Below are positions 16,980-36,062 of a stretch of DNA of 38,937 bases, in pieces. The position numbers and the translations under genes were made by a program. The stretch's first letter is position 1; every line of letters begins with the position of its first letter. The DNA lies in the IMG/VR virus record IMGVR_UViG_3300008050_009071, positions 1 through 38,937 of that record. One strand, given 5' to 3'. Under the pieces are notes generated by a model. It worked only from the letters and a program-made list of their open reading frames with translations, did no database searches and was not told the origin of the DNA. This DNA is from a virus.

Positions 16980-16980
16980 G

Positions 16981-18153
16981 CTATTTCTCCATTGACCCAC
17001 GAATAACGCTTTCGTACTTTCCGAATATGGTTTCTAGACTGTGGGTTTTCCTGATTTTCTTTGCCAGGGTTTTTGCGGACTCTCGATAAATGTCTCGATC
17101 GCGGAGCACCTTGGCCATCTTCTTTTTGAAGTTTCCTTCTCTCGCTTCAGCCCACTTAGCACGGGTAGTAAATATGTTCTTGTCAACTCGAGATGCAGGA
17201 ATTTGGTACAGATCATACTTGACCCTCAGGAAACTATCTCCCTCTAAATATTCAGTGTATGCAGACCAGTCTGTTGCCACAATGGGAAGGCCGGCTACGG
17301 CAGCCTCGACCATTGGGAGTCCAAATCCTTCTCCGCGAGTAGCAGATAACAGAGCAGTTAGTTTTGGGCTCTTGTAGAGATTCGTCATCTCTTGACGTGT
17401 CATCGATCCATGCAGCATATAGATCTTGGGAGGATTCTTTACCTTGACACCTTTCACAACTTGCGTGAGAGTTTTTCTGACCAGCTCTCTGTCAATACTA
17501 GTTTCTCGGCCCTTGGTTGTCTTGACAACCAGTCCAACGTCGTCTGACTCATGAAACGTCTCTAGGAACCACCTGATGCTGGCAACCAGATTTTTTCTGT
17601 CTGCTGCTGGGTCATCGCTGACCATCGTTCCGATTATGAGGAAATTGTTAGATGTGGGAAGTGATTGCAATGGATCATCAGTTGGATCTTCTAAGATTTC
17701 TTCAAAATAGCCTTCCGGAACAACAACGATGGGTGTCTTTTCTCTTCCGGTCGACGAAGCCTGGAGTCCCATTTTTGCATGGGTGCTAGGCACTATTACC
17801 AAATCCATCTTTTCTCGATGAGTGGTTGCCCACTCAATGGAACATCTATCTGTCTCAACGCCGGCTGTTACTCCAATGTTGAAATGTCCCAAGCCCGGGT
17901 CCCATTCATTGGGAAGCTGGACCTGGATTGTAATGTCGAACTTCTCTTTTCCGGGAACTGACTTTTCCATTATTCGGCCATAGATACCGTTCTCGAAGTC
18001 GCTATTGACACACCACGGAGTAATTCCCCAGCCAAGAACTTGTGTTGACAGGTTCCAGTCTTTCTGGGATTCACAGAATTGAAATATCTGCCTCGAATGA
18101 ACTCCATACCCAGACATACTCAGTAGGGGCGCTCGCAATAGCACTGTTTTCAT
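16981..18153 (-). CDS. Glycosyltransferase, GT4-type (GT-B fold)
   Basis: A 390-residue glycosyltransferase of the retaining GT4 type. The E-x7-E signature is at residues 275-283 (GEGFGLPMVEAAVAGLPIVA), where the glutamates contact the nucleotide-sugar donor. The N-terminal Rossmann half opens with a Gly-rich acceptor-side loop (LLSMSGYGVHSRQIF), and residues about 100-150 contain VPSTHAK and VVVPEGY, typical of the inter-domain region. Donor and acceptor cannot be read from the sequence. The start overlaps the stop of the other GT4 gene (TAATG) with GGAGATCGGATA upstream. It is the last gene of the sugar cluster, immediately before the membrane-protein/sigma/baseplate genes. Confidence 0.9.
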   Translation of the reverse strand: MKTVLLRAPLLSMSGYGVHSRQIFQFCESQKDWNLSTQVLGWGITPWCVNSDFENGIYGRIMEKSVPGKEKFDITIQVQLPNEWDPGLGHFNIGVTAGVETDRCSIEWATTHREKMDLVIVPSTHAKMGLQASSTGREKTPIVVVPEGYFEEILEDPTDDPLQSLPTSNNFLIIGTMVSDDPAADRKNLVASIRWFLETFHESDDVGLVVKTTKGRETSIDRELVRKTLTQVVKGVKVKNPPKIYMLHGSMTRQEMTNLYKSPKLTALLSATRGEGFGLPMVEAAVAGLPIVATDWSAYTEYLEGDSFLRVKYDLYQIPASRVDKNIFTTRAKWAEAREGNFKKKMAKVLRDRDIYRESAKTLAKKIRKTHSLETIFGKYESVIRGSMEK

Positions 18154-19400
18154 TATCCGATCTCCTCAATCACAAACTTTCCATCTGTCTTCCAGTTTTC
18201 ACACAGGTCCCAAAGGGTGTCATGCCACAAGTTCACTGTTGTATCCAGGTTGAACTCTGAGAGCACGTAATTTCTAGCCTTAGTACCCAATTCCTTTCGC
18301 TTTTCAGGGCCACACGCATACATCTGGTGTAATGCACGGGCGGTTGTAGCGTTACTAACGTAGTCCTCGTAAATGTATGGAACTAATTGCGAGCCAACCA
18401 TCGATTGCATCTCAACAGGAAGAGCAATTCCGTTCTCAGACCCGTCTCTGTGATCTACAACTTGACGTGTTAAACCTCCGGTTTTGATTGCAATGACCGG
18501 TTTCCCAACCTGCATCGCCTCTAGCGTGGCCAGACCAAAGCCTTCTGCATATGCTATGTTGATGCAGCAATCTGATATGTTGTGTAAGATGTTCATCTTC
18601 TCAAACTCTACTCTCTGATTTGAGAAAACAACGCTGTCAATGATTCCCAGTCGTTCAACGATAGCCAGGAGATTGGGCCCCTCTTGGTCAACTGGATCGG
18701 TATGCATCAGAAGGGTCGCATCAGATTTTCCTTCCGATTCGAGCTTTTTCATGAAGAGTGACCATGACTCTAAAACATCGGCCGGCCTTTTCCTTCGGGC
18801 ATTTCGGTTGACCCAAAAAACAACAAAGTGATCCTTTCTTTCCGGACCCAAAATTTGAATCTTAGAGTCTCGAATGGCTGTTGGTGTCATTGGAAAGAAA
18901 AGCTCGGCTGGCAGAGCATGAGGAACGAAGTTGGCCTTTCCCGGAACTATCTCGTTGACCATCTCATACGTGAGATGACTATGGCAGTTGACCAGATCAG
19001 TGGCTTCGTAGAGAACTCGGTTGTATTCCGGCGCGGGTCTGTTGTCCCAGACGTGCCAGTATGCAATCGGGCAAATCTTGTTGATCTCGTCATGCATCTC
19101 CCAGATATAGATGAAAAACCTGGGATCTGTGAAGAGGAACAGGACATCTGGCTTTTCAGCCGCCAGCGTCTGAAGCAGCATTTCTCTGTTTCCAAACCCG
19201 TCAATTGGCTTGATAACAAAGTCCTCGTTGACCACGATCGGATCGTAATTGTCGTGCTTCATAGCCGCGCCAAACTGGCGAATTGACCAGCACCCCTTCT
19301 TCAAAAGACCGTTGATGAGAAATCGACTCTGACACCCAACCCCGCTCGTAGAAAGAGCGTGATCCGATAACATGAGGATCTTCTTTTTGTTAGTATTCAT
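18153..19400 (-). CDS. Glycosyltransferase, GT4-type (GT-B fold)
   Basis: A 415-residue GT4-type glycosyltransferase. The N-terminal domain starts with KILMLSDHALSTSGVGCQSR (a donor/acceptor Gly loop after the first strand). The C-terminal donor domain holds the E-x7-E motif at 286-294 (AEGFGLATLEAMQVGKPVIA) followed by KTGGLTRQVVDH. The middle has NRNARRKRPADVLESW, the usual conserved strand after the linker. The start at 19400 has no clear Shine-Dalgarno, unlike nearly all other genes here. The 47-base gap upstream carries a possible promoter placed so that the transcript could begin at or near the ATG. Substrates unknown; it is adjacent and overlapping with another GT4, suggesting successive transfer steps. 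Confidence 0.9.
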   Translation of the reverse strand: MNTNKKKILMLSDHALSTSGVGCQSRFLINGLLKKGCWSIRQFGAAMKHDNYDPIVVNEDFVIKPIDGFGNREMLLQTLAAEKPDVLFLFTDPRFFIYIWEMHDEINKICPIAYWHVWDNRPAPEYNRVLYEATDLVNCHSHLTYEMVNEIVPGKANFVPHALPAELFFPMTPTAIRDSKIQILGPERKDHFVVFWVNRNARRKRPADVLESWSLFMKKLESEGKSDATLLMHTDPVDQEGPNLLAIVERLGIIDSVVFSNQRVEFEKMNILHNISDCCINIAYAEGFGLATLEAMQVGKPVIAIKTGGLTRQVVDHRDGSENGIALPVEMQSMVGSQLVPYIYEDYVSNATTARALHQMYACGPEKRKELGTKARNYVLSEFNLDTTVNLWHDTLWDLCENWKTDGKFVIEEIG

Positions 19401-19447
19401 TGAAACTATACTATTACGGGCGAGCGCAACAGTAAACGTCTAAATGA
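19401..19447 (-). promoter_or_regulatory. Possible sigma-70-like promoter giving a near-leaderless transcript
   Basis: In this gap, on the minus strand, TTTACT (four of six matches to TTGACA) is followed after 17 bases by TAGTAT (four of six matches to TATAAT), and then seven bases to the ATG of the downstream GT4 gene. That would place initiation at or next to the start codon. No GGAG-type ribosome site precedes this ATG. Each box is a weak match and the gap is AT-mixed, so this may be chance. Confidence 0.25.
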
Positions 19448-20359
19448 TTAGATCTTGCAGTTGTCGGTGCCAGCAAACTCACAAAATCTGCAGCTATATC
19501 GATTCTTGAGTGCCATTCCGCGATCCATCAACCGGATCATGCTGGACACCTTCTTCTTAGCTCTTTCCATCATCTTTGGTCCAGATGATACCTCAACAAT
19601 GTCCACCGATTTTCTGGGTTTTCCGGACTTCATGGGCTGAACATCTCGCTTCAGGAGAACGAAAGCGGCCTGGACTTTTGATGATGGCAGGCCTGTCTTT
19701 TTCATCCAGTAGATCTTGTAGAGGATGATCTGGAATTGTGTTAGCTCATCCTTCTTTTTGTCTGATCTCCAACCGGCTGGACCAGATGTTTTCCAATCGA
19801 TGACAACATTCTTTCCGCTCGGGAGTTCAAGAACGCAGTCGATGAATCCCTTGAAGTGGCCAACCTCTCCTTCAATCGGGCTGTAGATTCGATACTCTGC
19901 AGACAAAGGCTTCCAGCCCGGCCAGGTCTCATCAAGAAACTCCGGAAGCCCGGTCAAGGCATTCTTCGCCGAATCCAGCCAACCTTGCAAATGAACATGC
20001 TTGTACTTCCAGTCTTGACTCAGTGCACGGGCTGTCTGGGCTTTGATGAATTCGGGTGTATCAAACCCATTCTTTTTCCACGCAGCTCGTATCTTTTTGT
20101 ACACTGCCTCCAGATCGATTGTTCTGGTTTTCAAAAATCCTTCGGCAGCTTCATGAACAATGGTTCCGTAATCAAGATAGGGACTGATGTCGTTTTCTTT
20201 CTTCTTCTCGATGTACAACAACTTGTGTCGCCACGGGCAAGAAGCCCAGGTGCTAACCTCTGAATATGAAACGTGCGGCTTTCCATTTTTCAGAAGGGGT
20301 AGGGACTTGTCTATTGCTGGTTCTTTTCTCATCAAGCTTATTGTATCAGGTTTAGACAC
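19448..20359 (-). CDS. PD-(D/E)XK nuclease with Fe-S cysteines, Cas4/AddB/RecB-like
   Basis: A 303-residue nuclease of the PD-(D/E)XK superfamily. Motifs in order: SYSEVSTWASCPWRHKLLY with Cys41, GTIVHEAAEGFL (His motif), GFIDCVLEL (Asp), VIDWKTS (D-x-K catalytic motif) and QFQIILYKIYW (Q-x-x-x-Y). The C-terminus has Cys290, Cys293 and Cys301 (CRFCEFAGTDNC). One N-terminal plus three C-terminal cysteines is the arrangement that binds a 4Fe-4S cluster in Cas4 and AddB nucleases. Such enzymes process DNA ends in recombination or replication. The start is a GTG at 20359 (an in-frame stop lies just upstream) without a clear ribosome site; an ATG at 20332 is possible. It is the one non-carbohydrate gene within the sugar cluster. 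Confidence 0.9.
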   Translation of the reverse strand: MSKPDTISLMRKEPAIDKSLPLLKNGKPHVSYSEVSTWASCPWRHKLLYIEKKKENDISPYLDYGTIVHEAAEGFLKTRTIDLEAVYKKIRAAWKKNGFDTPEFIKAQTARALSQDWKYKHVHLQGWLDSAKNALTGLPEFLDETWPGWKPLSAEYRIYSPIEGEVGHFKGFIDCVLELPSGKNVVIDWKTSGPAGWRSDKKKDELTQFQIILYKIYWMKKTGLPSSKVQAAFVLLKRDVQPMKSGKPRKSVDIVEVSSGPKMMERAKKKVSSMIRLMDRGMALKNRYSCRFCEFAGTDNCKI

Positions 20360-20369
20360 AATTTACACG

Positions 20370-21326
20370 TCAGATCTCTGACACCGCTCGACCGGTCAAT
20401 TTTTCCCAATCCTTTTGAGGGCGGACCTCGAGATTCTTCTCCCAGACAGCCGACATCACTTTCGGATCGATGCCCAATTGACGGGCAACAAAGATGAGTG
20501 CATTGAGATCTTTCACAAAACAGCTTCCGCCAAATCCAAAAACAGCTTCGCCAGTATCATCTGACGGCATTGGTCCCGGGACCTTCCAGTGGGACTTTCC
20601 GAGGCGCTCGTCTCGAGTTGCAACCTCAATGACTTCATCGTAGTCGATGCCGAAACCCTTTTCATCAAGGGCAGTGCAGACCTGATACAACTCATTTGCC
20701 AGGGAAACCTTGGCAGCAAGATGTATGTTTGTCACATACTTGACCATCTCAGCAGTGGTTGAAGTTGTTTTGACAATGGGAACATTTGGGAAGTATCGCT
20801 GGTACAGATTTCGGACCTTGTTGATCTGCGGCCGGTCGCCACCCAGAACAATTCGGTCTTGATCTCTCATATCTTCCAGAGCTGTTGCTTCGCGAAGAAA
20901 CTCCGGGTTGAAAATCACTGACAGGGACTTACCGTATTTGATATTCCACAGACGAGTATAGCCGGGCGGAACTGTTGATTTGATGACAGCAATTCTTTCC
21001 GAGTCCTCTGTCGCCAATTCGCTCAAAACGGAGTCCAAAATTGAAAGATCAGCAAACCCATCGGGCTTCATCGGAGTGGGCAGACACAAAAAGAAGATGC
21101 CTGAGAATGACGGATTCAGTTCACAAGACTTGGCAAACTCCTTTGTGGAGTATTGTGGCTGCGACTTGATGTAGCTTTTGTACAGCTGTTGGGATCTTGG
21201 GTCCACGCCGCCTGGAGAAACCTTGTCGGACTTATCATACACAAGTACCCTGGCGCCCTTCTCGGAAAAGACTGTCGTGAGCGATCCGCCCACAAATCCT
21301 TGTCCAATTACTGCTATAGATTTCAT
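20370..21326 (-). CDS. UDP-glucose/nucleotide-sugar 6-dehydrogenase-like, lacking the C-terminal domain
   Basis: A 318-residue member of the UDP-glucose/GDP-mannose dehydrogenase family, which oxidises a nucleotide hexose to the uronate in two NAD-dependent steps. Visible elements: GQGFVGGSL (NAD loop, residues 8-16), FLCLPTPMKPDG, KSTVPPGYT, FNPEFLREA with Glu145, VKYVTNIHLAAKVSLANE with Lys206, and FGGSCFVKDLNAL with the catalytic Cys269 and Lys273. The catalytic set appears complete. The protein stops just after the central helical linker, so the C-terminal UDP-binding Rossmann domain found in the usual 390-450-residue enzymes is missing. It directly follows the epimerase gene with AAAGGAGGAGTAA as a strong ribosome site, consistent with UDP-Glc to UDP-GlcA and on to UDP-GalA. 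Confidence 0.88.
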   Translation of the reverse strand: MKSIAVIGQGFVGGSLTTVFSEKGARVLVYDKSDKVSPGGVDPRSQQLYKSYIKSQPQYSTKEFAKSCELNPSFSGIFFLCLPTPMKPDGFADLSILDSVLSELATEDSERIAVIKSTVPPGYTRLWNIKYGKSLSVIFNPEFLREATALEDMRDQDRIVLGGDRPQINKVRNLYQRYFPNVPIVKTTSTTAEMVKYVTNIHLAAKVSLANELYQVCTALDEKGFGIDYDEVIEVATRDERLGKSHWKVPGPMPSDDTGEAVFGFGGSCFVKDLNALIFVARQLGIDPKVMSAVWEKNLEVRPQKDWEKLTGRAVSEI

Positions 21327-22199
21327 TTACTCCTCCTTTAGATTCTTGCAAAACTCTGCAACGTATTCTGGCAAGCTTCTTTCCGGTTGCCAGGATGTAT
21401 GATCAGCTATCAAGGATGCGTCAGCAAGTGTATTACGAGCTTCGCCTGGCCTCTTTGGCAAATATATCTTGGTGCCGCCGAACATATCGGCGAGCTGGTT
21501 GATGGAGTAGTTAACTCCGGTTCCGATATTGAAAATCCAAGTGCTGTCGTTTTCACTCCAATCCTTTTCTCCAAGTGCAGCAAATCCCTTGACAATGTCG
21601 TACACATGAGTGAAGTCGCGGCGTTGCTCTCCGTCATCAGTTACAGTCAAAGGCTCACCCCGGGTCGTCTGGCCTTCAAATATCGCTACGATTGTAGCCC
21701 ATTTTCCAGTTGTTGGCTGGCGGGCTCCATACACATTGAAGAATCTGGCGGCCACAGTACTGACCCCGAAAACCTCATGATAAAGTTGACACACTTGTTC
21801 GCCTGTGTATTTTGCAAAAGCGTACGGATTCAAAAACGGGCCCGCGTATGCAGACGATGATCCGGCATAGACAATCCGGCATTTCAGTTTTCGGGCCAGT
21901 TCACACACTGCGGCCGTTCCCATGATGTCATTTGACAAATACTCCAGCGGAATCTCAAATGAGGGCTGGATTCGAGCAAATGCTGCCAAGTGATAGATGA
22001 CATCATAGTCTGGATGATCGTGATCACAGATTTGTCGAACATCATTTTTCGTATAGCACACGTCGCTTCTCATGTATTTTTCTGATGATGACTCAGTGCT
22101 AAGATTGTCCCACACATATACTGCGTGTCCCAAATCCCTCAGATGATCAACCAGATGGGATCCAATGAATCCCAGACCTCCTGTAACTAACACTTTCAT
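21327..22199 (-). CDS. NAD-dependent sugar epimerase/dehydratase (UDP-hexose 4-epimerase-like)
   Basis: A 290-residue extended short-chain dehydrogenase. TGGLGFIGSH at residues 6-15 is the NAD-binding loop, DNLSTE at 31-36 follows strand 2, and IYHLAAFARI at 68-77 is the typical strand-4 motif. The active site is SSSAYAG (114-120) with Tyr126 and Lys130 in NPYAFAKYTGE, and RFFNVYGARQ (152-161) and RDFTHVYDIV (195-204) are the substrate-side motifs of UDP-Glc/GlcNAc/GlcA 4-epimerases. Exact substrate specificity is not readable. A UDP-xylose synthase is less likely because its usual CYDEGKR-type active site is absent. With the dehydrogenase next door, UDP-glucuronate 4-epimerisation is a reasonable guess. 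The ribosome site is ACGGAGGATTC. Confidence 0.9.
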   Translation of the reverse strand: MKVLVTGGLGFIGSHLVDHLRDLGHAVYVWDNLSTESSSEKYMRSDVCYTKNDVRQICDHDHPDYDVIYHLAAFARIQPSFEIPLEYLSNDIMGTAAVCELARKLKCRIVYAGSSSAYAGPFLNPYAFAKYTGEQVCQLYHEVFGVSTVAARFFNVYGARQPTTGKWATIVAIFEGQTTRGEPLTVTDDGEQRRDFTHVYDIVKGFAALGEKDWSENDSTWIFNIGTGVNYSINQLADMFGGTKIYLPKRPGEARNTLADASLIADHTSWQPERSLPEYVAEFCKNLKEE

Positions 22200-22210
22200 G
22201 AATCCTCCGT

Positions 22211-23107
22211 CTACAGCTGTTGAATCAGCTCCCTGTACTTTTCATATCCCGCCGGAAGAACCAGATCTTCAACCACTGGAACTGATGGCGTAGCAAGGGT
22301 TACATCCTCGTTGATTGATGCCGGCGGCAATACTTGCTCGGCGATGCCAACAGATCGTGACACCATCGGAATGTTCAGTAAGCCACACTCCACAAAAGAC
22401 TGTGGGCCGCCTTCGAACCTAGCAGTAACTGGATACAAGTCAAGAGTCTGATACAGTTCGTTTAGAGTTGGCTGTTCTGCCATTTCGAAATAGGTGTAAA
22501 GAATCCCAGCGCTTTCGAGTCTTGAAATGATGTATTGGCGGCGCCAGCCACCCAAAACAACATGAAGATCCTTATCTTTCTGCCAGACTTCCAGAGCATC
22601 GGCCAAAATGTCCGGACCCTTTTCCAACTTGGGTGATACAAGATCATGCCCCTCTGTGTCTCTTTGAAACGATCCGACTAAAAAGGCGTTTGCCGGAAGT
22701 CCATGCTTTTTCCTGAGGTTTTGTTTGCTATCTGTTTGTTTCCAGATTTTTTGATTGGCCCAGAACGGGAACATAACGATGGGTTTGTTCGTTAGCTGGG
22801 CCACATGAATACGCGTATGTGAATTCGGAACATGATAGACGTCAGTAAACCTATCACGATCGTTAAACTCGGCGACCTCGTGAGGCCCAAACTTTTCTGG
22901 AACTAAGTGATGGATGGTTGTTATAACACGTTTGGAAGCAAGAATGCTCGGATCAATTTTTCGATAACACCAGTCTGCAAGAAGCCATACAACGTCGGAT
23001 TCATGTGGATTGAGTACACTGATATCTTCATTGTCTTGATTCCACTCAGCGACAAACCGATCTACGATCCAGTTTTCCCCGGGAGCCAAGACGAAAACTT
23101 TTCTCAT
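22211..23107 (-). CDS. Glycosyltransferase, GT-B/GT4-like
   Basis: A 298-residue GT-B-like glycosyltransferase, shorter than the typical 350-400. The N-terminal half is compact (RKVFVLAPGENWIVDRFVAE, ITTIHHLVPEKFG, VYHVPNSHTR). The C-terminal half shows VGSFQRDTEG, EKGPDILADAL, the donor-site E-x7-E at 232-240 (EGGPQSFVECGLLNIPMVS) and a following Gly/Glu turn (SVGIAEQVL). This matches the GT4 pattern. It overlaps the carbamoyltransferase stop by four bases, suggesting coupled expression. Donor and acceptor are unknown. Confidence 0.85.
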   Translation of the reverse strand: MRKVFVLAPGENWIVDRFVAEWNQDNEDISVLNPHESDVVWLLADWCYRKIDPSILASKRVITTIHHLVPEKFGPHEVAEFNDRDRFTDVYHVPNSHTRIHVAQLTNKPIVMFPFWANQKIWKQTDSKQNLRKKHGLPANAFLVGSFQRDTEGHDLVSPKLEKGPDILADALEVWQKDKDLHVVLGGWRRQYIISRLESAGILYTYFEMAEQPTLNELYQTLDLYPVTARFEGGPQSFVECGLLNIPMVSRSVGIAEQVLPPASINEDVTLATPSVPVVEDLVLPAGYEKYRELIQQL

Positions 23108-24759
23108 TGGGTCACCTCTTTCTTTTTCGAGATCAAGATTTTCTCAGAGCTGATGTACAAATCGTCGATATCTGTTCCCAGGAAGCAGTTCAATGCATGC
23201 CCTGGCGTTTCACAAATTGGTTCTCGGTCATTAAAGCTGGTGTTCAACAGTATGGGAACTCCGGTCTTTTCTTCCCACTTTTTCAGCAAGCTATAGTACC
23301 ACGGATTGTCCTTCTCGGATACTGTTTGTAGCCGGGCAGATCCATCATGGTGACAGATTGCTGGAACTTGATCCTGCTTATCATCACGAATAGGCATCAC
23401 ATACTGCATGTATGGGCTGTTAACATCGTGGGTGAACCAATCAGTCACCTTTTCTCGCAAAATTGATGGTGCAAAGGGCCGGAACCACTGGCGATGCTTG
23501 ACCTTCAAGTTGACAATATTTTTCATCTCAGGATTTCGTGGGTCTGCTAGAATACTTCGATTGCCAAGGGCGCGGCGGCCAGACTCAGATCCCTCGTTGA
23601 AAACAGAAACGATGTGTCCCTTCTCCAGGAGGTTACAGACGTCATCAATCTCAACATTGAACTTTGTGTGCATCCCGCTGGTCATAACGCAATCTAAGAA
23701 TCCCTCATCAATCGGCCAGGTTTCCCCAAGATAGGGAGAGCAATTGTCTTCCCATGCAATTCTTGGGTTCCTTAGCACTGAATGATACACATACTGTGCT
23801 GCACCAATACTGAGGCCTCCATCGTACGGGACGGGTGGGATGTATACATTCCATCCCATGTCAGTATACTTTCGGTAGAGTTGACCCATTGCAACTGAGT
23901 TTAGGGCAACCCCTCCTGATGTGCAGATGTTCTTCTGTCCGGTCCAGGAGCTGGTGGCGAGTGTTACAAACTCATCTAAGAGTCGCTCTGTTGCGGCTTG
24001 AAGGCCTGCTGCCAAGTCAAAGAGATTCTTTTCGTTTTCGTCTGCCAGCTTTGCCCATCGATCAAGATACGGATGGGTTGGATCTTTTCCGGCGACGTAT
24101 GCTCCGATGGGCTGTGTGGGCGGCTTCATTCCGGCGGGTATCACATCAGCTGTTAGCATTTTGTAGAAGTCATCGGAAAATCGGGTCGGGTCTCCGAAAG
24201 CAGCCATTGCCATGATGGTCCCTTCTTGACCCCCAAGTGGCCAGCCATTCTGGAGCTTGAAAACGTAACGAGTCACTCTTGACCAAACACCGCCAATGTT
24301 GATGGCACGTGGGCTGAAGTAACATCGATTTTGTACGTCTAGTCCTTCACCGCTCCAAACTGCCATGGCGGACTCGACTCCCTCCTTGTTCTCAACACCG
24401 CCGCCGTCAATTGTAAAAATAAGAGCTTCTTCAAAATCAGAGGAAAAGAAGGCGTTGCATGCATGAGCAGCATGGTGAGGAACCACTGTTATGTTTCCGC
24501 CGTTCTTAGATACAGCTTGCCGAACAGACTCTAGGCTTTCCTGGAATTTTTCATACTTTTGCACCGGATACACGATTGCAAGCTCAGAGATGCTTTCATA
24601 ATCCGGATATCGCTCCATCAGAAACTTTAGTGAATCACTTGGTGCACACTTTTCCCGAGAGTACCTTTCAAACTCCGCGTGAATAACGGGCTTTCCGTCA
24701 TGGAGAACCACAAACGAAGAATCGTGACCTGACCAGCATCCTGCTATTTTCTGAACCAT
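23104..24759 (-). CDS. O-carbamoyltransferase, NodU/CmcH (TobZ) family
   Basis: A 551-residue carbamoyltransferase from the ATG at 24759, which lies two bases after the previous stop with AGAGAGTAAC upstream. An in-frame ATG at 24780 would overlap the methyltransferase gene and its AGGAA is too far away. The N-terminal Kae1-like domain has GCWSGHDSSFVVLHDG and the metal/ATP signature VVPHHAAHACNAFF, plus FTIDGGGVENKEG. The central NICTSGGVALNSVAMGQLYR is the second nucleotide-binding signature. The C-terminal YrdC-like part shows NEGSESGRRALGNRSILADP and HRQWFRPFAPSIL. The family transfers carbamoyl from carbamoyl phosphate via carbamoyl-AMP to a hydroxyl of a sugar or nodulation factor. Here it presumably decorates the sugar made or transferred by its neighbours. 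Length fits the family. Confidence 0.93.
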   Translation of the reverse strand: MVQKIAGCWSGHDSSFVVLHDGKPVIHAEFERYSREKCAPSDSLKFLMERYPDYESISELAIVYPVQKYEKFQESLESVRQAVSKNGGNITVVPHHAAHACNAFFSSDFEEALIFTIDGGGVENKEGVESAMAVWSGEGLDVQNRCYFSPRAINIGGVWSRVTRYVFKLQNGWPLGGQEGTIMAMAAFGDPTRFSDDFYKMLTADVIPAGMKPPTQPIGAYVAGKDPTHPYLDRWAKLADENEKNLFDLAAGLQAATERLLDEFVTLATSSWTGQKNICTSGGVALNSVAMGQLYRKYTDMGWNVYIPPVPYDGGLSIGAAQYVYHSVLRNPRIAWEDNCSPYLGETWPIDEGFLDCVMTSGMHTKFNVEIDDVCNLLEKGHIVSVFNEGSESGRRALGNRSILADPRNPEMKNIVNLKVKHRQWFRPFAPSILREKVTDWFTHDVNSPYMQYVMPIRDDKQDQVPAICHHDGSARLQTVSEKDNPWYYSLLKKWEEKTGVPILLNTSFNDREPICETPGHALNCFLGTDIDDLYISSEKILISKKKEVTQ

Positions 24760-24760
24760 G

Positions 24761-25390: not shown

Positions 25391-25425
25391 GACATTATCC
25401 TATGAAAGAATGTGAAAATGTAACC

Positions 25426-27314: not shown

Positions 27315-27315
27315 G

Positions 27316-28881: not shown

Positions 28882-29590
28882 ATTTGTCCTCTAGTCTTGT
28901 GATGTCATCTTCTCCGAAGTATGATCCGGTTTGAACCTCTATGAAAACCAGTGGCTCTCCTGACGTGCATGAAATCGTATGAGGTTGTCCTGCCTTGATA
29001 TTGACATGATCCTCGGGGTCCACTTCGATTTCTTTGTCATCCAGCCTAACCGTTCCGGTTCCTGACACGACAATCCAGTGCTCATCTCGTTTTGCATGAA
29101 CTTGATAGCTTGGGCACTGTCCTGGATCAACTTCGATTCTTTTGATCTTGTATTTCTCATCATCATGAAGATTCCAGAACTTTCCCCAGGGCCGAGACTC
29201 AGTTGGAAGATCCGGATCGATATCAATCCTTGCAAGTCCTGAGTTTCTTGCAACACAAATGGCTCGAGCTGTCATATCGGACTCGGATGCATTTTCAGGT
29301 GTTTTTCCTGGCTTGAGATCGTTGATTACAACTCTCTGCCCCCGGGGTAATCCCATTACCAAATGATCCCAAAACAATCCGGCGTGCTGTAGTTGCTTCT
29401 CAGTTTCCTTTCTCTGACTTTCTTTTCGGCCTGTCGTCAAAACTATGAAATGTCCTTTTGACTGCCATCTATTGATTTTTTCCCGAGTTTGTGGCAAAAC
29501 ATGGGCCGGCTTGATTGTCTGGCCACTCAGGCCTTGGCCATGATGCCAGAATAGAACTCCATCAATATCACAAAAAATTGTCTTACTCAT
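28868..29590 (-). CDS. HAD phosphatase - cupin (type II mannose-6-phosphate-isomerase-like) fusion
   Basis: A 240-residue two-domain protein. Residues 1-120 are a small HAD phosphatase: FCDIDGVLF with Asp8 and Asp10 as nucleophile and acid, LTTGR at 51-55 (motif II) and VVINDLKPG with Asp91 (motif IV). Residues about 128-240 are a cupin matching the isomerase domain of bifunctional GDP-mannose pyrophosphorylase/phosphomannose isomerases: SRPWGKFWNL, YKIKRIEVDPGQCPSYQVHA, HWIVVSGTGTVRLDD, HVNIKAGQPHTIS and FIEVQTGSYFGEDDITRLED. Metal-ligand histidines and a glutamate/glutamine are present. The fusion suggests dephosphorylation and isomerisation (or epimerisation) of a sugar phosphate in one pathway. 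It overlaps the next gene and is overlapped by the previous one by four bases. Confidence 0.9.
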   Translation of the reverse strand: MSKTIFCDIDGVLFWHHGQGLSGQTIKPAHVLPQTREKINRWQSKGHFIVLTTGRKESQRKETEKQLQHAGLFWDHLVMGLPRGQRVVINDLKPGKTPENASESDMTARAICVARNSGLARIDIDPDLPTESRPWGKFWNLHDDEKYKIKRIEVDPGQCPSYQVHAKRDEHWIVVSGTGTVRLDDKEIEVDPEDHVNIKAGQPHTISCTSGEPLVFIEVQTGSYFGEDDITRLEDKYGRV

Positions 29591-30444
29591 TTCTTCTCCA
29601 TCTCAGAATACTTCGGACTGCTTTCCAAAACCCCTGTCTTGACTTCGTTGACCCATCCATGCGAATTCTGAGAGTTTTTTTCAACCTCATGAACATCGTA
29701 TAGATCCCTGACTAAAGGTGCCGGCCCCATCTTCGCACCTATTGCCCCTTGATCCCATGGCCTTTCCGGTCCGATAAACTGAATGTTGTCTTCGCCGATT
29801 GTGTTTGCAACCAAAGCTCTAGCAAGGAAATGACTATGAACACCCCATCGAGGAAAAACGTCAATGTCTTTTACATGGTCAAACATAGAGCAGATGGTAT
29901 CAACATGGGCAGGCCCAGATATGAAAAACAGATCTTGAATCCCATGGTGACTGAGCGGTGGAATCACATACAGTTTGTCGGCGGCCAGTTGAGAAAAATC
30001 GATAGGAACCACATAAGCCAAGTCAAAACGCGTCAGCATAACCATGTCGTAATCCACGTCGGCACTTTTTCGAAGGGTATTAACGATCTTGGCACTATAC
30101 CAGCGGCTGAACAGTGAATGAAATCTGATGTTCTCTATTCCGTGGAACACGCCATTCTCAGTTTTCCCATCGTTCATCGGCAGGTTTGGGTTTCCAACAA
30201 TGTATCGAAAATCAAAATGAATCTGCTTTTCAAACAGAGCACCTTTGGGATCATACAATCCTCTCAGTATTTCTTCGCTCTCAGTTGACCATGAGTGCAT
30301 GAAAACGTCAACCTGATCATTTGGGTTTGCATTCACGATGTTTTTGACAAAGTGATCATGAGACAAGCTTAGGTCAATATTTTGTCCGGTCCCGTATTTG
30401 TTGACTGTTCCTGCCAGTCCATGCATCAATATTGCGATTTTCAA
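29587..30444 (-). CDS. Putative glycosyltransferase-like protein, family uncertain
   Basis: A 285-residue protein with a Rossmann-like start (MKIAILMHGLAGTVNKYG) and no membrane segment. The central DYDMVMLTRFDLAYVVPIDF (131-150) looks like the acidic donor motif of a GT-A fold protein, with RFDL in the usual D-x-D position. VFMHSWSTESEEIL earlier and a HSHFLARALVAN helix later are also glycosyltransferase-like. I do not recognise a named family. All flanking genes are carbohydrate enzymes and it overlaps both neighbours by four bases, so a transferase or acceptor-binding role is likely. A polysaccharide-related protein of unknown chemistry is the alternative. Confidence 0.7.
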   Translation of the reverse strand: MKIAILMHGLAGTVNKYGTGQNIDLSLSHDHFVKNIVNANPNDQVDVFMHSWSTESEEILRGLYDPKGALFEKQIHFDFRYIVGNPNLPMNDGKTENGVFHGIENIRFHSLFSRWYSAKIVNTLRKSADVDYDMVMLTRFDLAYVVPIDFSQLAADKLYVIPPLSHHGIQDLFFISGPAHVDTICSMFDHVKDIDVFPRWGVHSHFLARALVANTIGEDNIQFIGPERPWDQGAIGAKMGPAPLVRDLYDVHEVEKNSQNSHGWVNEVKTGVLESSPKYSEMEKK

Positions 30445-31502
30445 ACCACCACCTCACTCAAAATCCTCGCCACAGCTTTGGACGACTCTACACATGTGTC
30501 TATTTTTCCAGAGAACACGTTAATCATTTTATCACCGTCAAACTCAACCAGGGTTGGTCGCTTATCAGTTGCATCCACGTCCGGAAGAACCGTTCGGACA
30601 GTAAACATCGATGCGACATACTCGGCTTTGCTGAGCGCCGGAATGTAGCACTCTCCCGATTCCTTGATTTTCTGGAAGTTAGACCTTTGTGGGTTTTTAA
30701 CAAACCCAACATTGAGATCCTTGACCATATCGGGCGGAACTTCGGCACTGTGGCCGACATTGGTGTGATGAATTGCATGTACAACATTTCCCAGCAATGA
30801 AAGCCCGGTTGTTCCGTAAGGATCCACGCACATAAATGGCCCATCCATTACCACGATACTTTTCTTTGAGATCGACTCCGGCATCTTGACAATGATTTTT
30901 TCGCAGACCTCAAACTGATAGTTCTGCTTTTTATCATCATCGACAATGTCATTTAGTCTTGCATACGTGCAGTTGATAACAATGTCAAACTCACTGGCAT
31001 CAGCTTTGGTGAAGTCGGTTCCAAAAGACGTGTGAATTCTTGATTGTCGGATGCGCTGCCAGCAAAGATCATACAGTTTTTTGTAGTCAAGTAAGTTTTC
31101 CTTGACCTGAAGTGTCAAAGCAATTCGGTCGTTTGCCACATGCTGAAAGTTTGTGACCGGTAGATATTCCAGCCCGAATTCGTCACAGAATTTTGTATAC
31201 TCCTCTGCACTGACGAAACTCTGCTCATTGGCAATGCAGTAAAAGTGATCGAAATTACTCAAAATGGCTGGCTGATATTCACTGGCAAACGAAGCAAGAG
31301 AAGACAGCAATGATGAAACTGTGTCGGGGGCTCGAGGGTAGTGGTACCCACGATGCAACCGCAACTGATTTGTTCGGCTGGCCGCTGTCAAAATATCGTA
31401 TGCTGTATCACACAGAGTCACATAGTACTCTGGGTTCTCACTAGATAGCCGAGCCGCTATTGTTGTTCCAAAAATTCCTGCGCCTACTACTGCTATTTTC
31501 AT
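30441..31502 (-). CDS. FAD-dependent oxidoreductase, DAO-like
   Basis: A 353-residue flavoprotein-like enzyme. The N-terminus KIAVVGAGIFGTTIAARLSS is the Gly-rich dinucleotide fold binding FAD, and the D-amino-acid-oxidase-type signature continues with an acid at the end of strand 2 (CDTA) and NQLRLHRGYHYPRAPDTVSS. The C-terminal half has RTVLPDVDATDKRPTLVEFD and a final FSGKIDTCVESSKAVARIL, where the second FAD-contacting Gly region usually lies. The substrate is unknown; within a sugar cluster it may oxidise a hydroxyl or amino group of an activated sugar. Both ends overlap neighbours by four bases. The first ATG is the only one consistent with the dinucleotide motif at the very N-terminus. 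Confidence 0.85.
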   Translation of the reverse strand: MKIAVVGAGIFGTTIAARLSSENPEYYVTLCDTAYDILTAASRTNQLRLHRGYHYPRAPDTVSSLLSSLASFASEYQPAILSNFDHFYCIANEQSFVSAEEYTKFCDEFGLEYLPVTNFQHVANDRIALTLQVKENLLDYKKLYDLCWQRIRQSRIHTSFGTDFTKADASEFDIVINCTYARLNDIVDDDKKQNYQFEVCEKIIVKMPESISKKSIVVMDGPFMCVDPYGTTGLSLLGNVVHAIHHTNVGHSAEVPPDMVKDLNVGFVKNPQRSNFQKIKESGECYIPALSKAEYVASMFTVRTVLPDVDATDKRPTLVEFDGDKMINVFSGKIDTCVESSKAVARILSEVVV

Positions 31503-32299
31503 TGTCTAATCCCTTCAATGATGCTGAGAACTTCTTTTGCAAGATCCAGGTTCGAAAATCCTGTGTTTTGTTGTACGTTCCTTAGGAATAGATCCCTTTG
31601 GAAGTCCAGGGCTTTGGGATTGGGAGACCATGTCAACTCAACAGCTGGACCTTTGAAAAGGACTCTTTTTGCACCGATTGGACTACATCGGTCGATGTCA
31701 ACTGTTATCGGGTGTCCACCATAATCGTAGTGCAGCTTGCAAAAGTCCTTCTCGAGTGATTCGATGTCGAGATTCTTGATTTCGTTGTTACCAAACATAT
31801 CGATCACCATGGCAATATCGTGGGAAACCAAGTTCAACAAAATGTCATTGTTGAATGACCCGAGCTTTCTCCACACGAAGCTGATTTTGCAGGCCTGGTT
31901 GGCAACCCGTAGTTTCGTGTCATGATACTTCGGGTCAGCGAGATGCAGATAATCAATCATGCATACCAGGCTTGACCTGACTTCCTGAAGGGATGAAATC
32001 TCTTCTGGTCTTTGTGCTCCGGGCTTTTCTAAAAAGACGTGTTTTCCGGCCGTCAGGCATTCACATCCAAGTCGTGCCAGCGATTCAATGGGTGCAGCTA
32101 TGACCACGCTTTCAATATCATTGTCTTCCAGAACAGTTTTCAGATCGGTTATTCTGGCGTCCGGAATGATCGACTTCATTGCTAACAAATTGCCAGTGTT
32201 TCCGGTTGTTACAACATGAGAAATGTTGCATTTCTGTGAAAAGGACTTGGCGAGAATCCTTGCCCATGGTCCACCACCGATTATTGCAACACTTTTCAT
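31499..32299 (-). CDS. Gfo/Idh/MocA-family sugar oxidoreductase
   Basis: A 266-residue NAD(P)-dependent oxidoreductase. SVAIIGGGPWARILAKSFSQ is the dinucleotide loop, SVVIAAPIESLARLG the middle of the Rossmann fold, and HVFLEKPGAQRPEEI (87-101) carries the family EKP motif with the catalytic lysine at 92. The C-terminal alpha/beta domain is short (VDIDRCSPIGAKRVLFKGPA), so the protein is smaller than the usual 320-380 residues. Members reduce or oxidise sugars and sugar nucleotides. It overlaps the FAD enzyme by four bases, so the two redox genes may act in sequence on one sugar. Its ATG overlaps the preceding stop by one base (TAATG). Confidence 0.85.
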   Translation of the reverse strand: MKSVAIIGGGPWARILAKSFSQKCNISHVVTTGNTGNLLAMKSIIPDARITDLKTVLEDNDIESVVIAAPIESLARLGCECLTAGKHVFLEKPGAQRPEEISSLQEVRSSLVCMIDYLHLADPKYHDTKLRVANQACKISFVWRKLGSFNNDILLNLVSHDIAMVIDMFGNNEIKNLDIESLEKDFCKLHYDYGGHPITVDIDRCSPIGAKRVLFKGPAVELTWSPNPKALDFQRDLFLRNVQQNTGFSNLDLAKEVLSIIEGIRQ

Positions 32300-33204
32300 T
32301 AGAACAATTGTAGAACTTTTGCGAAGTATTTATCAATACATTTTTCCCAGCAGACAGGAACTATCCCATTATTTTGCTGGGGATTTGCTATCAGGCCTAA
32401 CAGATGTTCGAAATCTCGGTAAACATGAGACGAGCCGGCCTGTTCGGCGGCGCCGCCAGAATCCTCATGTGTGTATGTTGGAATGCCACAAGCCAAGCTC
32501 TCAATGATATGATTTGGGCCGGGGTCAAACCGAGAGGCTGATATGTACACGTCGTATTTTGATAGCTCTTTACCTAATTCCATTCCAAACATTGGAGCTA
32601 TAACTCTTGAATTCTGGAACTTAGATTTAGTACGTCCGATGTATGTGAATGTGAATCCCGGATTTTCTGGTAGCCATTGGTCGATCATCTCATACACATC
32701 TTGGCCTTTCAAGGGATTGTCTGACCAGTGATGAGTTACCAAGTTGATTTTTCCATTGTCCCATCTTGGCCGCGGGCAAAAATGCTCTGTGTTGGTTCCG
32801 GAATATACGACAGGATTGAGCCGACACCCCCACTGATCACTGATGTGGTAGTTGGCGATCCAGCTCGAGATGAAAAAGCAAATGTCGGTTATTTGACCGG
32901 CAGCCTGAACTAGCGGATCAATCTCTTGGTTGGTTCCTTTTCTCTGGTCACACTCATTGATCCGGTAGATCACACGCGTGTCAGGCTTGAACTGTTTGTA
33001 AGCTGCTATCTCTCGAATTGAAATTCCCAAATCATCATATCGTGGGTCGATCATGAAGATCAAGTCGATATCATCAGAAAACTCATGAACAGGCTGGAAT
33101 CCATACTTGGGGGCGAATTTGTGTAGAGCTCTTACAAAATTGTTTCCGCCGCCCCATGGGCCCTCGATTGGTTTTCTGTTAATCAGAATCTTTCTGTTAC
33201 TCAT
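32299..33204 (-). CDS. Glycosyltransferase, GT4-like
   Basis: A 301-residue GT-B-like glycosyltransferase. The N-terminus KILINRKPIEGPWGGGNNFV has the Gly-rich acceptor loop, with VIYRINECDQRKG and YSGTNTEHFCPRPRW in the inter-domain region. The C-terminal donor site is DPGPNHIIESLACGIPTYTH with Glu235, followed by EDSGGAAEQAG, matching the GT4 pattern. It overlaps the GT2 gene by four bases and its stop overlaps the Gfo/Idh start. It is probably one step in sequential assembly of an oligosaccharide. Donor and acceptor are unknown. Confidence 0.88.
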   Translation of the reverse strand: MSNRKILINRKPIEGPWGGGNNFVRALHKFAPKYGFQPVHEFSDDIDLIFMIDPRYDDLGISIREIAAYKQFKPDTRVIYRINECDQRKGTNQEIDPLVQAAGQITDICFFISSWIANYHISDQWGCRLNPVVYSGTNTEHFCPRPRWDNGKINLVTHHWSDNPLKGQDVYEMIDQWLPENPGFTFTYIGRTKSKFQNSRVIAPMFGMELGKELSKYDVYISASRFDPGPNHIIESLACGIPTYTHEDSGGAAEQAGSSHVYRDFEHLLGLIANPQQNNGIVPVCWEKCIDKYFAKVLQLF

Positions 33205-33929
33205 GCTTTCAAAAATCCTCGGGAGCGAAGGAATTCAGCCTCTTCCTTCTGAAACACTGCATCAGATGATTGGAATGTGCTGGGCTGCATGTCGATCGTG
33301 TAGTGATATGCAACAATGGGCTCAAAATGCCAATTGCCAGCAGACTGGTGCAAGACAGGTAAATAGACAGCTTGATCACCAATTCTCTGGAAATAGCGTC
33401 CATCAGAGCCCCTGAAGTTTGAATTCGGCACACCTTCAATTAGCTTCTTCTTGAATGTCTTGAGATGTGAGCTGACCCACGAATACGCGTACGGATCTGC
33501 TGTTTTGGGCAAAGGTCCGGATATATTTTGATTTGTGAAACTCCAGCGATGAGCAGTCCACAATACGTCACAGCCCAGTTCTTGGTACCGCTGGTTGATG
33601 ATTGATAACGCATCGGAGTCACACAACCAGTCATCGCCATCAAGTCGACAGATGATATCCTCTGATTCACAATCGTGAAGGCTTTCAAGAATATTGCGGA
33701 CCTCCCACTTCTTCTCAGTGTTGACCCTCAATTCCAGCTGATCAGTGGTCAGGTTCAGCATTTTTCGAATCTGCTCAACCATCCCTATGGTGTCATCCAT
33801 GGACATGTCGTCAGTAACGATGATTTTCCAGTTGGGATATGTCTGAAACCAAACTGACATAATGCATCGCTGGATTGTTTCGATGGCATTGAAAGCCGGA
33901 GTGATGAAAACGAATCGATTATTTGCCAT
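33201..33929 (-). CDS. Glycosyltransferase family 2 (GT-A fold)
   Basis: A 242-residue GT2 enzyme. VFITPAFNAIETIQRCIMSV is the classical N-terminal strand-turn-helix, IIVTDDMSMDDT (36-47) the nucleotide-binding acids, and IICRLDGDDWL (92-102) the D-x-D metal/donor motif. The C-terminal part (residues about 150-242) contains the acceptor region and ends KEEAEFLRSRGFLKA. The inverting transfer substrate is unknown. GATAGGCAAAC precedes the ATG, and the gene follows the GT4-GT2 fusion gene after six bases. Confidence 0.92.
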   Translation of the reverse strand: MANNRFVFITPAFNAIETIQRCIMSVWFQTYPNWKIIVTDDMSMDDTIGMVEQIRKMLNLTTDQLELRVNTEKKWEVRNILESLHDCESEDIICRLDGDDWLCDSDALSIINQRYQELGCDVLWTAHRWSFTNQNISGPLPKTADPYAYSWVSSHLKTFKKKLIEGVPNSNFRGSDGRYFQRIGDQAVYLPVLHQSAGNWHFEPIVAYHYTIDMQPSTFQSSDAVFQKEEAEFLRSRGFLKA

Positions 33930-33935
33930 GTTTGC

Positions 33936-35831
33936 CTATCTACTGATCATGATCCACGGGGTTTTTTCTCCATTCCACTTGCTATGGAAAATGTGCCCAC
34001 CCGTTTCTGTTGCAAGTTGATTTGCCCTTGCTTCTATCTCGTCGTCGGTTACCTCAGACCAGGACTTGTCGAAGAACATGTTGTTTTCGGCGGTGTCTTC
34101 CTGCCTGATGTCATACAGGCTCTCCCAGTGAGTTTGCCAGTAATTTTTGTAAGTGTTGATCTTGCGTGTGATGTCTGCCCAGGAATAATGCAAGACGCTT
34201 GGCAGCAGATGGACACAGTTTTGCATCCATGCCTGATATGCTGACAAAGCACTCTCGTTTCCTTGAAGCGCTTGAATTCGAACTTGGTGGGCTTGCTCGT
34301 TGTAGAAGCTTCCGTGTGGGATATGCTCGCCTGTTTCGGCATGAATGTAGTCACACCCATCAGTTCCGGGTAATGCGTAAAGGTTTCCATCATCATCATG
34401 TTGTCTCAGCTGGGCTGGAATGCCATGGGTGATGTGAGGAAGATTCCGACTAAGTCGCCATTTCCAAGGATTGACGTCAACCCGAACTTTGTCTTCGCTG
34501 CCCCAGAATTCAACCACAGGAAGGGAAATGAGATCGATCATTTGCGGCCAGCTGCGACATAATCTGACGACTTTGTCTCCATCCCCTTCCGGCACCACTT
34601 CATCAGCATCTATTTGCCAGCAGTATTCTCCGGTGCAGAGCTTTCTGGCTTCAGCTTTCTGGGCTCCATCAAATACTGCGAATCGTTTGTGATCCCAGTC
34701 ACGTAGTATCTGAGTGGGACGTATCTTCTCTTCCTTCTCAGACCATGACAGAAGCTCTTCCCAGGTTCCATCGGTGGATCCCCCATCGACAACAATGACC
34801 TCACTACAGAAAGCCAGAAGGGACCCAATACTGTCTTTCCACGGGTAGCCCTGATCGATACAGTTTCGAGTTGTAGTATAGCCGCTGATCGTAACACTAT
34901 GATTTGCATCATCTAAAATGTGACGCCAGAATAAATCTCGAGATCCATAGAGATACTCTTCGATCTCCTGAGGTGTACCGGTTTCAAACCACTCTTCTTC
35001 TGCATGCTGAACATCGTCGTTAAGATGAAGCTTGCATCCCAATAGCTTGGCTTCAATCACCATTCGTGGGCAGGTGTCCTTACCCAAAGGAAGATACACA
35101 AATCCCTCAGCTGAGGCTAGCTTTTCCAAAACCTCTCTATGTGGGTCCCCCCAGACTGTTTCATAATCCAGCTTGTTTTCTTTGCACCAATCTTCTGCTT
35201 TTGCTGCACCTTTGATCCAGCTGGTTGATCCTAGAACGATCCAGCCTTTCCTGTCTGTTTCAGCATACTCAGATCGAAGCTGCTTGATCGATACAAAAAA
35301 CTCATCATCAAAAACTGAGCTTAGAACAGTGTTCTTTTTCTCTGACAGGAACGGAAAGAGATCTGTGTAGAAGTTTAGCTGGTCCTCACTCATCCACCAC
35401 AGGCTTTTTGCGCCGTAGAAAAATGCTGATATTAGCTTCCCGTGTTGGGAGTTTTCACAATCACACTCTTTCTGCTCAATGAAAAGATGTTTCTCAGGAG
35501 ATCTATGCTTGCAGTATTTGTAGTCATATTCCAGAACACTATAGTTGATGTTCGCTACGATTGAAGGGATCAGTTCGAAATTCAAAGAAGCAAAGTTTCC
35601 AAAAATCCAGTATTTCTGAGCTCCTTGTTGCAAAAGGTCAAGAGTTACATTTTGAGACAAAACTTTTTGAACCCTGGCAGGAGACTTCTTAATGAGTGCT
35701 TCCGTAGTTAGCTCAGCTCCTCCTGGGTACTGTTCAACAAACACGTCAGAAATGAAGATGATGTCAGCTGATTGATCAATACTGACTACTGGTCGTTTGG
35801 GTGATGCACTGAAGGGGCTACTAAATGTCAT
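33936..35831 (-). CDS. Two-domain glycosyltransferase: GT4-like N-terminus fused to GT2 C-terminus
   Basis: A 631-residue fusion. Residues about 22-300 look GT-B-like: DIIFISDVFVEQYPGGAELT, VLGSTSWIKGAAKAEDWCKE, and a donor-site glutamate at 260 in CPRMVIEAKLLGCKLHLND. The second half, from about 310, is GT2: SGYTTTRNCIDQGYPWKDSI, VIVVDGGSTDGTWEELLSW (345-363) and the D-x-D in YCWQIDADEVVPEG (403-416). The C-terminal tail is long (to 631) and aromatic-rich, possibly for acceptor or partner binding. Two activities in one chain would allow consecutive sugar additions. It is the first gene of the sugar cluster after the fibre, with AAGAGGACATC upstream. The cysteine-rich ECDCEN and YKYCKH stretch near 105-126 is unusual. 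Confidence 0.88.
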   Translation of the reverse strand: MTFSSPFSASPKRPVVSIDQSADIIFISDVFVEQYPGGAELTTEALIKKSPARVQKVLSQNVTLDLLQQGAQKYWIFGNFASLNFELIPSIVANINYSVLEYDYKYCKHRSPEKHLFIEQKECDCENSQHGKLISAFFYGAKSLWWMSEDQLNFYTDLFPFLSEKKNTVLSSVFDDEFFVSIKQLRSEYAETDRKGWIVLGSTSWIKGAAKAEDWCKENKLDYETVWGDPHREVLEKLASAEGFVYLPLGKDTCPRMVIEAKLLGCKLHLNDDVQHAEEEWFETGTPQEIEEYLYGSRDLFWRHILDDANHSVTISGYTTTRNCIDQGYPWKDSIGSLLAFCSEVIVVDGGSTDGTWEELLSWSEKEEKIRPTQILRDWDHKRFAVFDGAQKAEARKLCTGEYCWQIDADEVVPEGDGDKVVRLCRSWPQMIDLISLPVVEFWGSEDKVRVDVNPWKWRLSRNLPHITHGIPAQLRQHDDDGNLYALPGTDGCDYIHAETGEHIPHGSFYNEQAHQVRIQALQGNESALSAYQAWMQNCVHLLPSVLHYSWADITRKINTYKNYWQTHWESLYDIRQEDTAENNMFFDKSWSEVTDDEIEARANQLATETGGHIFHSKWNGEKTPWIMISR

Positions 35832-36062
35832 GATGTCCTCTTAATTAAGATAGAGAATGCACAGTGACTTTACACTATTCAGATGCAGCTTCTCTAGCTT
35901 CTTAAAAGCATCCTATCAGCTTCTCTTCTAAAGTTAAAGAAATAGTCATCTCAGAGACAGACAGTGTTAAGCCCTCTCGTTTTTGTTCCCCAAAATTATA
36001 ATAGCTGCAGTTAGGAGGATGTTCAAAAACTTTTTTAAATTGTTCGAAAATTTACCAGTTTA
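35832..36062 (-). promoter_or_regulatory. Main intergenic gap: possible promoter, no gene assigned
   Basis: The gap separates the tail-fibre stop (tandem in-frame TGA TAA) from the first glycosyltransferase. It is AT-rich. On the minus strand, a TATTATAAT at 36003-35995 contains a perfect TATAAT, but no good -35 box lies 16-18 bases upstream, so a promoter is only possible. No clear stem-loop plus T-run terminator is visible for the fibre gene. A 15-codon ORF (35949-35902) is present but not convincing. No tRNA or other RNA structure was recognised. Confidence 0.35.

Follow-up and report, generated by a model that had tools for sequence, protein, structure and literature searches.

The sugar-gene block described here lies in a linear viral fragment of 38,937 bp, IMG/VR virus record IMGVR_UViG_3300008050_009071 (this whole stretch is called the window), and occupies positions 16981–35831 of its minus strand, where 18 open reading frames (ORFs; g16–g33) stand between a tail fibre gene and late-sigma-like and baseplate genes. 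The results revealed that the block is a hypervariable operon laid out like a bacterial capsule locus, with the flanks fixed and the middle swapped, and that 37 other viral records share its frame. We favour the reading, at a probability of roughly 45%, that its products attach an oligosaccharide to an acceptor in the cytoplasm, a structural protein of the virion being the likeliest candidate. Phage sugar clusters themselves are already known, and the frame with fixed glycosyltransferases is a new variation on them; the open literature yielded no description of a frame of this kind, in which the flanks are fixed, the cassette is exchanged and the core includes a nuclease. An earlier account made from the letters alone (the sequence-only reading) had given the same coordinates, single strand, sugar content and neighbours, all of which held, and had counted 17 genes where there are 18 ORFs.

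Scans of IMG/VR yielded 27 loci by g26, 63 by g33 and 6 by g08. The genes g17 and g33 were then sought in 50 records, the stretch from g33 to g17 was retrieved for 37, and same-strand ORFs were called in it. Relatives were recruited mainly via g33, so that the presence of this gene was selected, while the order of g17, g16 and g14 was not. In the 37 records the frame runs from g33 through a cassette to, usually, a nuclease–GT4–GT4 trio (g18–g17–g16), a late-sigma-like gene and baseplate genes. In 36 of the 37, g17 directly neighbours g16; g16 and g14 follow one another with or without g15 in all 37; and 33 have g18 at most three genes 5' of g17. The median share of cassette length covered by same-strand ORFs is 98.5% (ORFs called on one strand only), and with coverage this high the cassette is taken to be coding on one strand. 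The interval from g33 to g17 ranges from 1.0 to 31 kb (median 17 kb); in the two minimal forms (G010 and G039) the order is g33–g18–g17–g16, with essentially only g18 inside. No g17 match was obtained in 10 of the 50 records, most of which terminate shortly past g33, the exceptions being G007 and G043.

These results leave an assembly artefact, in which a host capsule locus was fused to phage genes, extremely unlikely. The exact 40-bp junction sequences match no second IMG/VR assembly, so that no independent assembly of this virus spans them, but with the gene order recurring in the other records, misassembly is ruled out as its origin, and the cassette and flank of the window have nearly the same GC content (45.9% and 46.1%). 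We also searched 84,980 bacterial and archaeal genomes, in which near full-length g33 was confined to two phage-like contigs of metagenome-assembled genomes (MAGs), both with cassette genes and one of them (L174) with g18 as well. Two further MAG contigs contained partial g33 matches beside the trio, and the remaining genome hits were to the GT-A domain alone. The MAG contigs with the locus are probably phage contamination and not a chromosomal capsule locus, which, with the recurrence of the frame, counts against both scenarios that the sequence-only reading had named as its own refutation. The labels of these MAGs (L174–L177) are Halobacteriovorax, Methylococcaceae TMED69 (a 305,838-bp contig), Pelagibacter and Pacearchaeota, with the locus or parts of it present. 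Outside the sugar block, a 12-kb contig (L092, IMGVR_UViG_3300002518_000385) matches the window at ~100% identity between g10 and g02 and represents an independent assembly of the same virus.

Between the flanks, gene content is hypervariable among relatives, as in the cyanophage and pelagimyophage clusters. The 728 cassette ORFs of the 38 loci fell into 306 families, 201 of which occur in a single record. G001 and G023, the nearest relatives by g17 (79–80%), nevertheless share only 2 of the 14 cassette families of the window, though a few other record pairs have mostly common cassettes (for example G031 and G033, Jaccard 0.93). A Pfam survey of one representative per family (277 families) returned epimerases, GDP-mannose dehydratases, RmlD, DegT aminotransferases, formyltransferases and FdtA, together with many methyltransferases including FkbM, sulfotransferases, radical SAM proteins and GT2 and GT4 glycosyltransferases. 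The frame had thus been found on other phage contigs, as the sequence-only reading had proposed to check, with the cassette content exchanged; its idea of a dedicated glycan system is well supported, although the swappable cassette between conserved flanks had escaped it. The 30-fold range of cassette size and the two nearly cassette-free minimal forms would also suit a very different view, in which sugar genes pile up as cargo in a tolerant insertion site and have no fixed function; for cyanophage lipopolysaccharide (LPS) clusters, a role as space filler for headful packaging has been suggested in the literature. We consider this very unlikely, given cassettes that are rich in sugar chemistry, coded on one strand, ~98.5% coding and flanked by glycosyltransferases, and catalytic motifs that are retained in g26, g27, g32 and g33.

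The conserved left flank, g33 (33936–35831, minus strand, as for all window genes below), is a predicted glycosyltransferase that joins a GT-B (GT4-like) to a GT-A (GT2-like) domain with an invariant DxD motif. This assignment draws on its 63 related IMG/VR loci, an AlphaFold model (pLDDT 91.5), and Foldseek and VIA matches, the VIA alignment covering the GT-B half only. The protein is full length in most relatives and encoded by two genes in a few. In L082/L083 and G043 the g33 homologue is split, its N-terminal half carries one in-frame TGA, and no g17 was found in 91 kb; the G043 phage possibly reads TGA as an amino acid.

The conserved right flank comprises g18 (19448–20359), g17 (18153–19400) and g16 (16981–18153). 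g18 matches PF12705, phrog_69 and Cas4, and its catalytic residues and Cys41, Cys290, Cys293 and Cys301 are invariant in 37 homologues; with a PD-(D/E)XK core plus four cysteines it has the features of a Cas4/RecB-like protein. By its residues, g18 is an exonuclease type and not a sugar gene, so that the contiguity of carbohydrate genes in the sequence-only reading stands for nearly the whole block, with this Cas4-type nuclease overlooked. Both g17 (PF00534; located in 40 of the 50 related records) and g16 (PF20706/PF00534; in 38 of 38 loci) are predicted GT4 glycosyltransferases. A homologous trio with sugar genes downstream is also present in Flavobacterium phage immuto, Microcystis phage Mel-JY01 and viral contigs of the L003 type; LR756508 has g18 and g17, and RM378 has the g17–g16 pair, beside which a gene annotated as DNA polymerase I-like gave no g18 match at E 1e-3. 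Judged from these homologues, the core predates the clade of the window. Immuto and Mel-JY01 differ from the window in that their cassette lies downstream of the trio and away from virion genes, and no g33 match was obtained in the regions compared.

A nuclease within the conserved core speaks for glycans destined for DNA. Under this explanation, the core glycosyltransferases decorate modified bases, the varied sugars counter restriction and anti-modification systems, and the Cas4-like nuclease degrades undecorated host DNA. It is favoured further by PF00303 homologues in G006, G025 and G038, all three of which have Asp in place of the Asn of thymidylate synthase, the one in G006 being nearest to CMP/dCMP hydroxymethylases; by dCMP-hydroxymethylase-like proteins that G045 and the 305-kb phage contig of G052 also encode; and by a 7-deazaguanine DNA pathway near the trio in immuto. 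However, G001 (the closest long relative, 284 kb), and the complete genomes of RM378 and Mel-JY01 have the glycosyltransferases and no PF00303 or QueD match, indicating that the core is not bound to one base chemistry. No window glycosyltransferase matched the T4 AGT or BGT families in Pfam or PHROG, the likeness to AGT being that of the generic GT-B fold, and cassettes of up to 35 ORFs imply glycans that would probably be too bulky for packed DNA. A search for TET/JBP proteins gave no matches, but its positive controls were silent as well, which deprives this negative of weight. Taken together, we regard DNA glycosylation as unlikely. The immuto pathway genes (QueD, QueE, FolE, QueF and DpdA) occupy positions 30008–37015 (L245), 12–19 kb from the nuclease–glycosyltransferase–glycosyltransferase trio.

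By the layout of the window, sugar genes and virion genes form a single run. All window genes are on the minus strand and are numbered from g01 (149–976) to g34 (36063–38909), with transcription directed from g34 to g01. Within the block most neighbouring ORFs overlap by 4 bp, in agreement with the overlapping ends described in the sequence-only reading, and internal gaps are all ≤47 bp. From g33 to g01 there is no spacer longer than 47 bp, and the sole sizeable gap of the window is the 231 bp ahead of g33 (35832–36062), a presumed promoter or leader that contains TGAACA-N19-TATAAT as a candidate only. A single large gap before g33 and tight packing after it suggest that the sugar block heads one operon-like run into the sigma-like and baseplate genes. 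In this run, g16 is followed by g15 (16677–17000), a small, conserved protein with one predicted transmembrane segment that has the same position, ahead of the sigma-like gene, in 32 loci, and by g14 (15937–16680), present in 38 of 38 loci. The assignment of g14 as late-sigma (gp55)-like comes from a weak family match to phrog_234, the T4 late sigma (E 4e-4 in the window, E 1e-5 in a close relative). Further downstream, g08 (10760–12604; phrog_6 and phrog_219), a gp6-like subunit, and g09 are baseplate wedge proteins.

Promoter searches were performed upstream of g33. Sigma-70-like sites averaged 8.7 matches in 32 relatives and 8.5 in shuffled sequences, and the T4-type late promoter TATAAAT was absent from the minus strand of the window. 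Since both searches were null, expression timing is not evident from the sequence. By eye, a TGTACA or TGAACA hexamer follows an A/T tract in many of the gaps 5' of g33 in relatives, and part of these copies may be terminator hairpin sequence.

To assess the export route, we counted cassette proteins with at least three strongly hydrophobic segments. The results showed that 1 of 728 cassette proteins, a 138-aa ORF, had them. Among the control genes for O-antigen and colanic acid of E. coli K-12, 5 of 29 were flagged (wbbH, rfbX, wzxC, wcaJ and wcaD), and these are both flippases, both polymerases and the initiating transferase. By the same test, none of the 38 loci gave a candidate for a flippase, polymerase or initiating polyprenyl-phosphate transferase. 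The near absence of polytopic cassette proteins makes a phage-encoded Wzx/Wzy export route unlikely. If no export genes are present, the acceptor should be cytoplasmic, that is, a protein, DNA or a host lipid such as the LPS core at the inner leaflet.

The last of these acceptors corresponds to remodelling of the host surface, in which the LPS core (lipooligosaccharide, LOS) or another lipid-linked acceptor would be extended or capped on its cytoplasmic face, a host flippase would export the product, and superinfection would be excluded. Authors working on cyanophage and pelagimyophage clusters have made this proposal, the enzymes resemble those of O-antigen and LOS loci, and hypervariability suits competition between phages. 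Addition to the LPS core would work without a phage flippase, so that the membrane-protein test is no obstacle to it. Nevertheless, no polymerase, flippase or initiating transferase was seen in the 38 loci, and a run in common with late-sigma-like and baseplate genes points to expression late in infection, at which stage a lytic phage would gain little from exclusion. This explanation therefore appears doubtful to us.

The favoured acceptor is a virion structural protein, because there is no sign of lipid-linked export and the sugar genes head the late-sigma-like and baseplate run. In the mechanism that we envisage, cassette enzymes would turn host metabolites into unusual activated sugars, modified by oxidation, epimerisation, methylation and carbamoylation and, in relatives, by sulfation, formylation and amination. 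Cytoplasmic glycosyltransferases of the cassette and of its flanks (g33, g17 and g16) would join these sugars into an oligosaccharide, and a virion protein made in that cell, possibly a component of the tail fibre, baseplate or coat, would receive it after being primed by g33. Cassette exchange would then alter the sugar coat of the particle, with a possible effect on adsorption or on recognition by surfaces and receptors. Computation establishes which genes are present, their operon-like arrangement, the conservation of the frame, the turnover of the cassettes and the scarcity of membrane proteins; what the enzymes do, when they are expressed, what they act on and what the phage gains are inferred. 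Glycosyltransferase genes that share one run with virion genes are the layout expected of a virion glycosylation system. The GT-A half of g33 favours such an acceptor weakly, through its resemblance to enzymes that glycosylate polypeptides: the peptide S-glycosyltransferases SunS and ThuS lead its Foldseek list, and there is a weak profile match to the flagellin transferase GmaR.

Several observations weigh against a virion acceptor. Similarity of glycosyltransferase folds fits many acceptors, and the g33 match lists also hold the teichoic acid transferase RmlT, chondroitin and heparosan synthases, the LPS transferase WaaG and the T4 DNA glucosyltransferase AGT. In immuto, Mel-JY01 and RM378, the trio or pair lies near replication or lysis genes and away from virion genes, which weakens the argument from location. 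The nuclease within the conserved core has no explanation under virion glycosylation, and LPS-core extension would equally require no flippase. Tail fibre and cassette similarity were weakly related (partial rank correlation 0.11), and the glycans of the clade are predicted from genes. The idea of one cassette per fibre type was dropped, as covariation with the tail fibre was only weak.

If the glycan is indeed placed on the virion, phages would vary antigenically in the manner of bacterial capsules, and this would bear on adsorption, persistence and recognition. We tentatively extend this to phage 'serotypes', in which a large T4-like lineage may swap cassettes of 1–31 kb within a fixed glycosyltransferase frame, each phage carrying its own complex virion glycan; this would amount to a diversification system like that of capsule loci, acting on virions. 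The purpose of whole sugar pathways in large aquatic phages has been debated for ~20 years between host LPS change, stuffer DNA, and DNA or virion glycosylation, and we found no decisive test. The question can now be tested with four core genes, cassette-free minimal forms, and the cultured immuto and Mel-JY01 with their homologous trio.

We compared the window with known systems. The sequence-only reading had taken phages to carry one or a few glycosyltransferases or a short operon, which understates what is known: the LPS genes of P-SSM2 number 24, in two clusters, and cyanophage clusters reach 15 genes (PMC2984593, PMC3037559, PMC7824862). Like the window, the cyanophage LPS/capsule clusters are long runs of glycosyltransferase and nucleoside diphosphate (NDP)-sugar genes in large T4-like phages, vary among relatives and include carbamoyltransferase and epimerase families. 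They lie near tail fibres and phoH, one P-SSM2 LPS cluster being near phoH. A PhoH gene also lies a few genes 5' of g33 in several relatives (L106, L119). The pelagimyophage host recognition cluster is a hypervariable island in the structural region, where tail fibres and glycosyltransferases occur together with UDP-glucose dehydrogenase and further enzymes of sugar metabolism (PMC7029224); it is bounded by VrlC and the neck gene gp14, neither of which was identified in the window, whereas the site in the window lies between the tail fibre and the sigma and baseplate genes. Hidden Markov model searches of P-SSM2 (208–252 kb) and HTVC008M (100–147 kb) matched g22, g20 and g19 only and did not detect the g33/g18/g17/g16 core; the HTVC008M region has just the carbamoyltransferase and dehydrogenase families in common with the window. 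A tblastn search with g17 over all phages gave no hit in P-SSM2 or HTVC008M.

Moraphages, a large aquatic T4-like lineage, have a core genome with four glycosyltransferase groups, a sigma factor, gp25 and gp6, and variable islands have been noted in them (PMC12619734). According to the citation of Freeman et al. 2023 in that paper, mycobacteriophage glycosyltransferases glycosylate capsid and tail tube subunits. As described there, mycobacteriophages have one or a few such enzymes, whereas in the window a whole biosynthetic pathway is predicted from the genes. Bacterial Wzx/Wzy capsule and O-antigen loci share with the window conserved flanks, a variable centre and similar sugar chemistry; the window differs in having no flippase, polymerase or initiating transferase, and in flanks made of phage virion and nuclease genes.

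The 18 block genes comprise seven glycosyltransferases with eight domains, nine sugar-nucleotide or sugar-modifying enzymes, one protein without an assignment (g28) and the nuclease g18. The sequence-only reading had proposed at least seven glycosyltransferases, and Pfam and profile searches found seven: g16, g17, g33 and four in the cassette. The latter are g32 (33201–33929; GT2, PF00535), which is the first cassette gene, g31 (32299–33204; GT4-type, by profile against PDB GT4 chains, E 0.003–0.02), g24 (25426–26337; GT4, PF00534) and, more weakly, the GT1/GT4-like g21 (22211–23107; PF00534 at 22.4 bits, under the Pfam cut-off). The epimerase, dehydrogenase, carbamoyltransferase, methyltransferase, FAD and Gfo/Idh enzymes and the nucleotidyltransferase–kinase and HAD–cupin fusions of that reading were all present, with weak matches for the FAD enzyme and the nucleotidyltransferase, and its list, correct as far as it went, had overlooked the aldolase-like g25.

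Among these enzymes, g30 (31499–32299; PF01408) is a predicted Gfo/Idh/MocA oxidoreductase, and g29 (30441–31502) a candidate FAD/NAD Rossmann oxidoreductase (PF01266 below cut-off). g28 (29587–30444; phrog_13607) is kept in phages, and no credible relative of solved structure was found for it. g27 (28868–29590; PF01050 and HAD matches) appears to fuse a HAD phosphatase to a cupin of the mannose-6-phosphate isomerase C-terminal type. g26 (27316–28881) would combine a sugar-1-phosphate nucleotidyltransferase with an APH-type kinase, with both active-site motifs kept and a weak nucleotidyltransferase match. g25 (26334–27314; profile against 8q57 and 3txv) resembles a class II tagatose-bisphosphate aldolase TIM barrel, and its predicted structure (pLDDT 91.2) matched 3txv in Foldseek (TMq 0.78). 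In relatives (L002–L027), g27 corresponds to two genes, the HAD directly before g26 and the cupin directly after g25; as the split genes bracket g26–g25, HAD, nucleotidyltransferase–kinase, aldolase and cupin look like one conserved route to an activated sugar.

The tail fibre gene upstream of the block, g34 (36063–38909; PF13884 and PHROG tail fibre families), encodes a C-terminal intramolecular chaperone (Peptidase_S74); it is not conserved as a whole, and segments are 57–62% identical in L029. At the other end of the cassette lie a predicted methyltransferase, g23 (24761–25390; PF13578), a NodU/Nol-type carbamoyltransferase, g22 (23104–24780; PF16861, PF02543, phrog_1601), and an NDP-sugar epimerase or dehydratase, g20 (21327–22199; PF01370), found in 31 of 38 loci. 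The last cassette gene, g19 (20370–21326), is a predicted NDP-sugar 6-dehydrogenase that matches PF03721 and PF00984 only. Its family (22 loci) measures 273–323 aa, with one member of 404 aa, and is without the C-terminal UDP-binding domain of cellular homologues.

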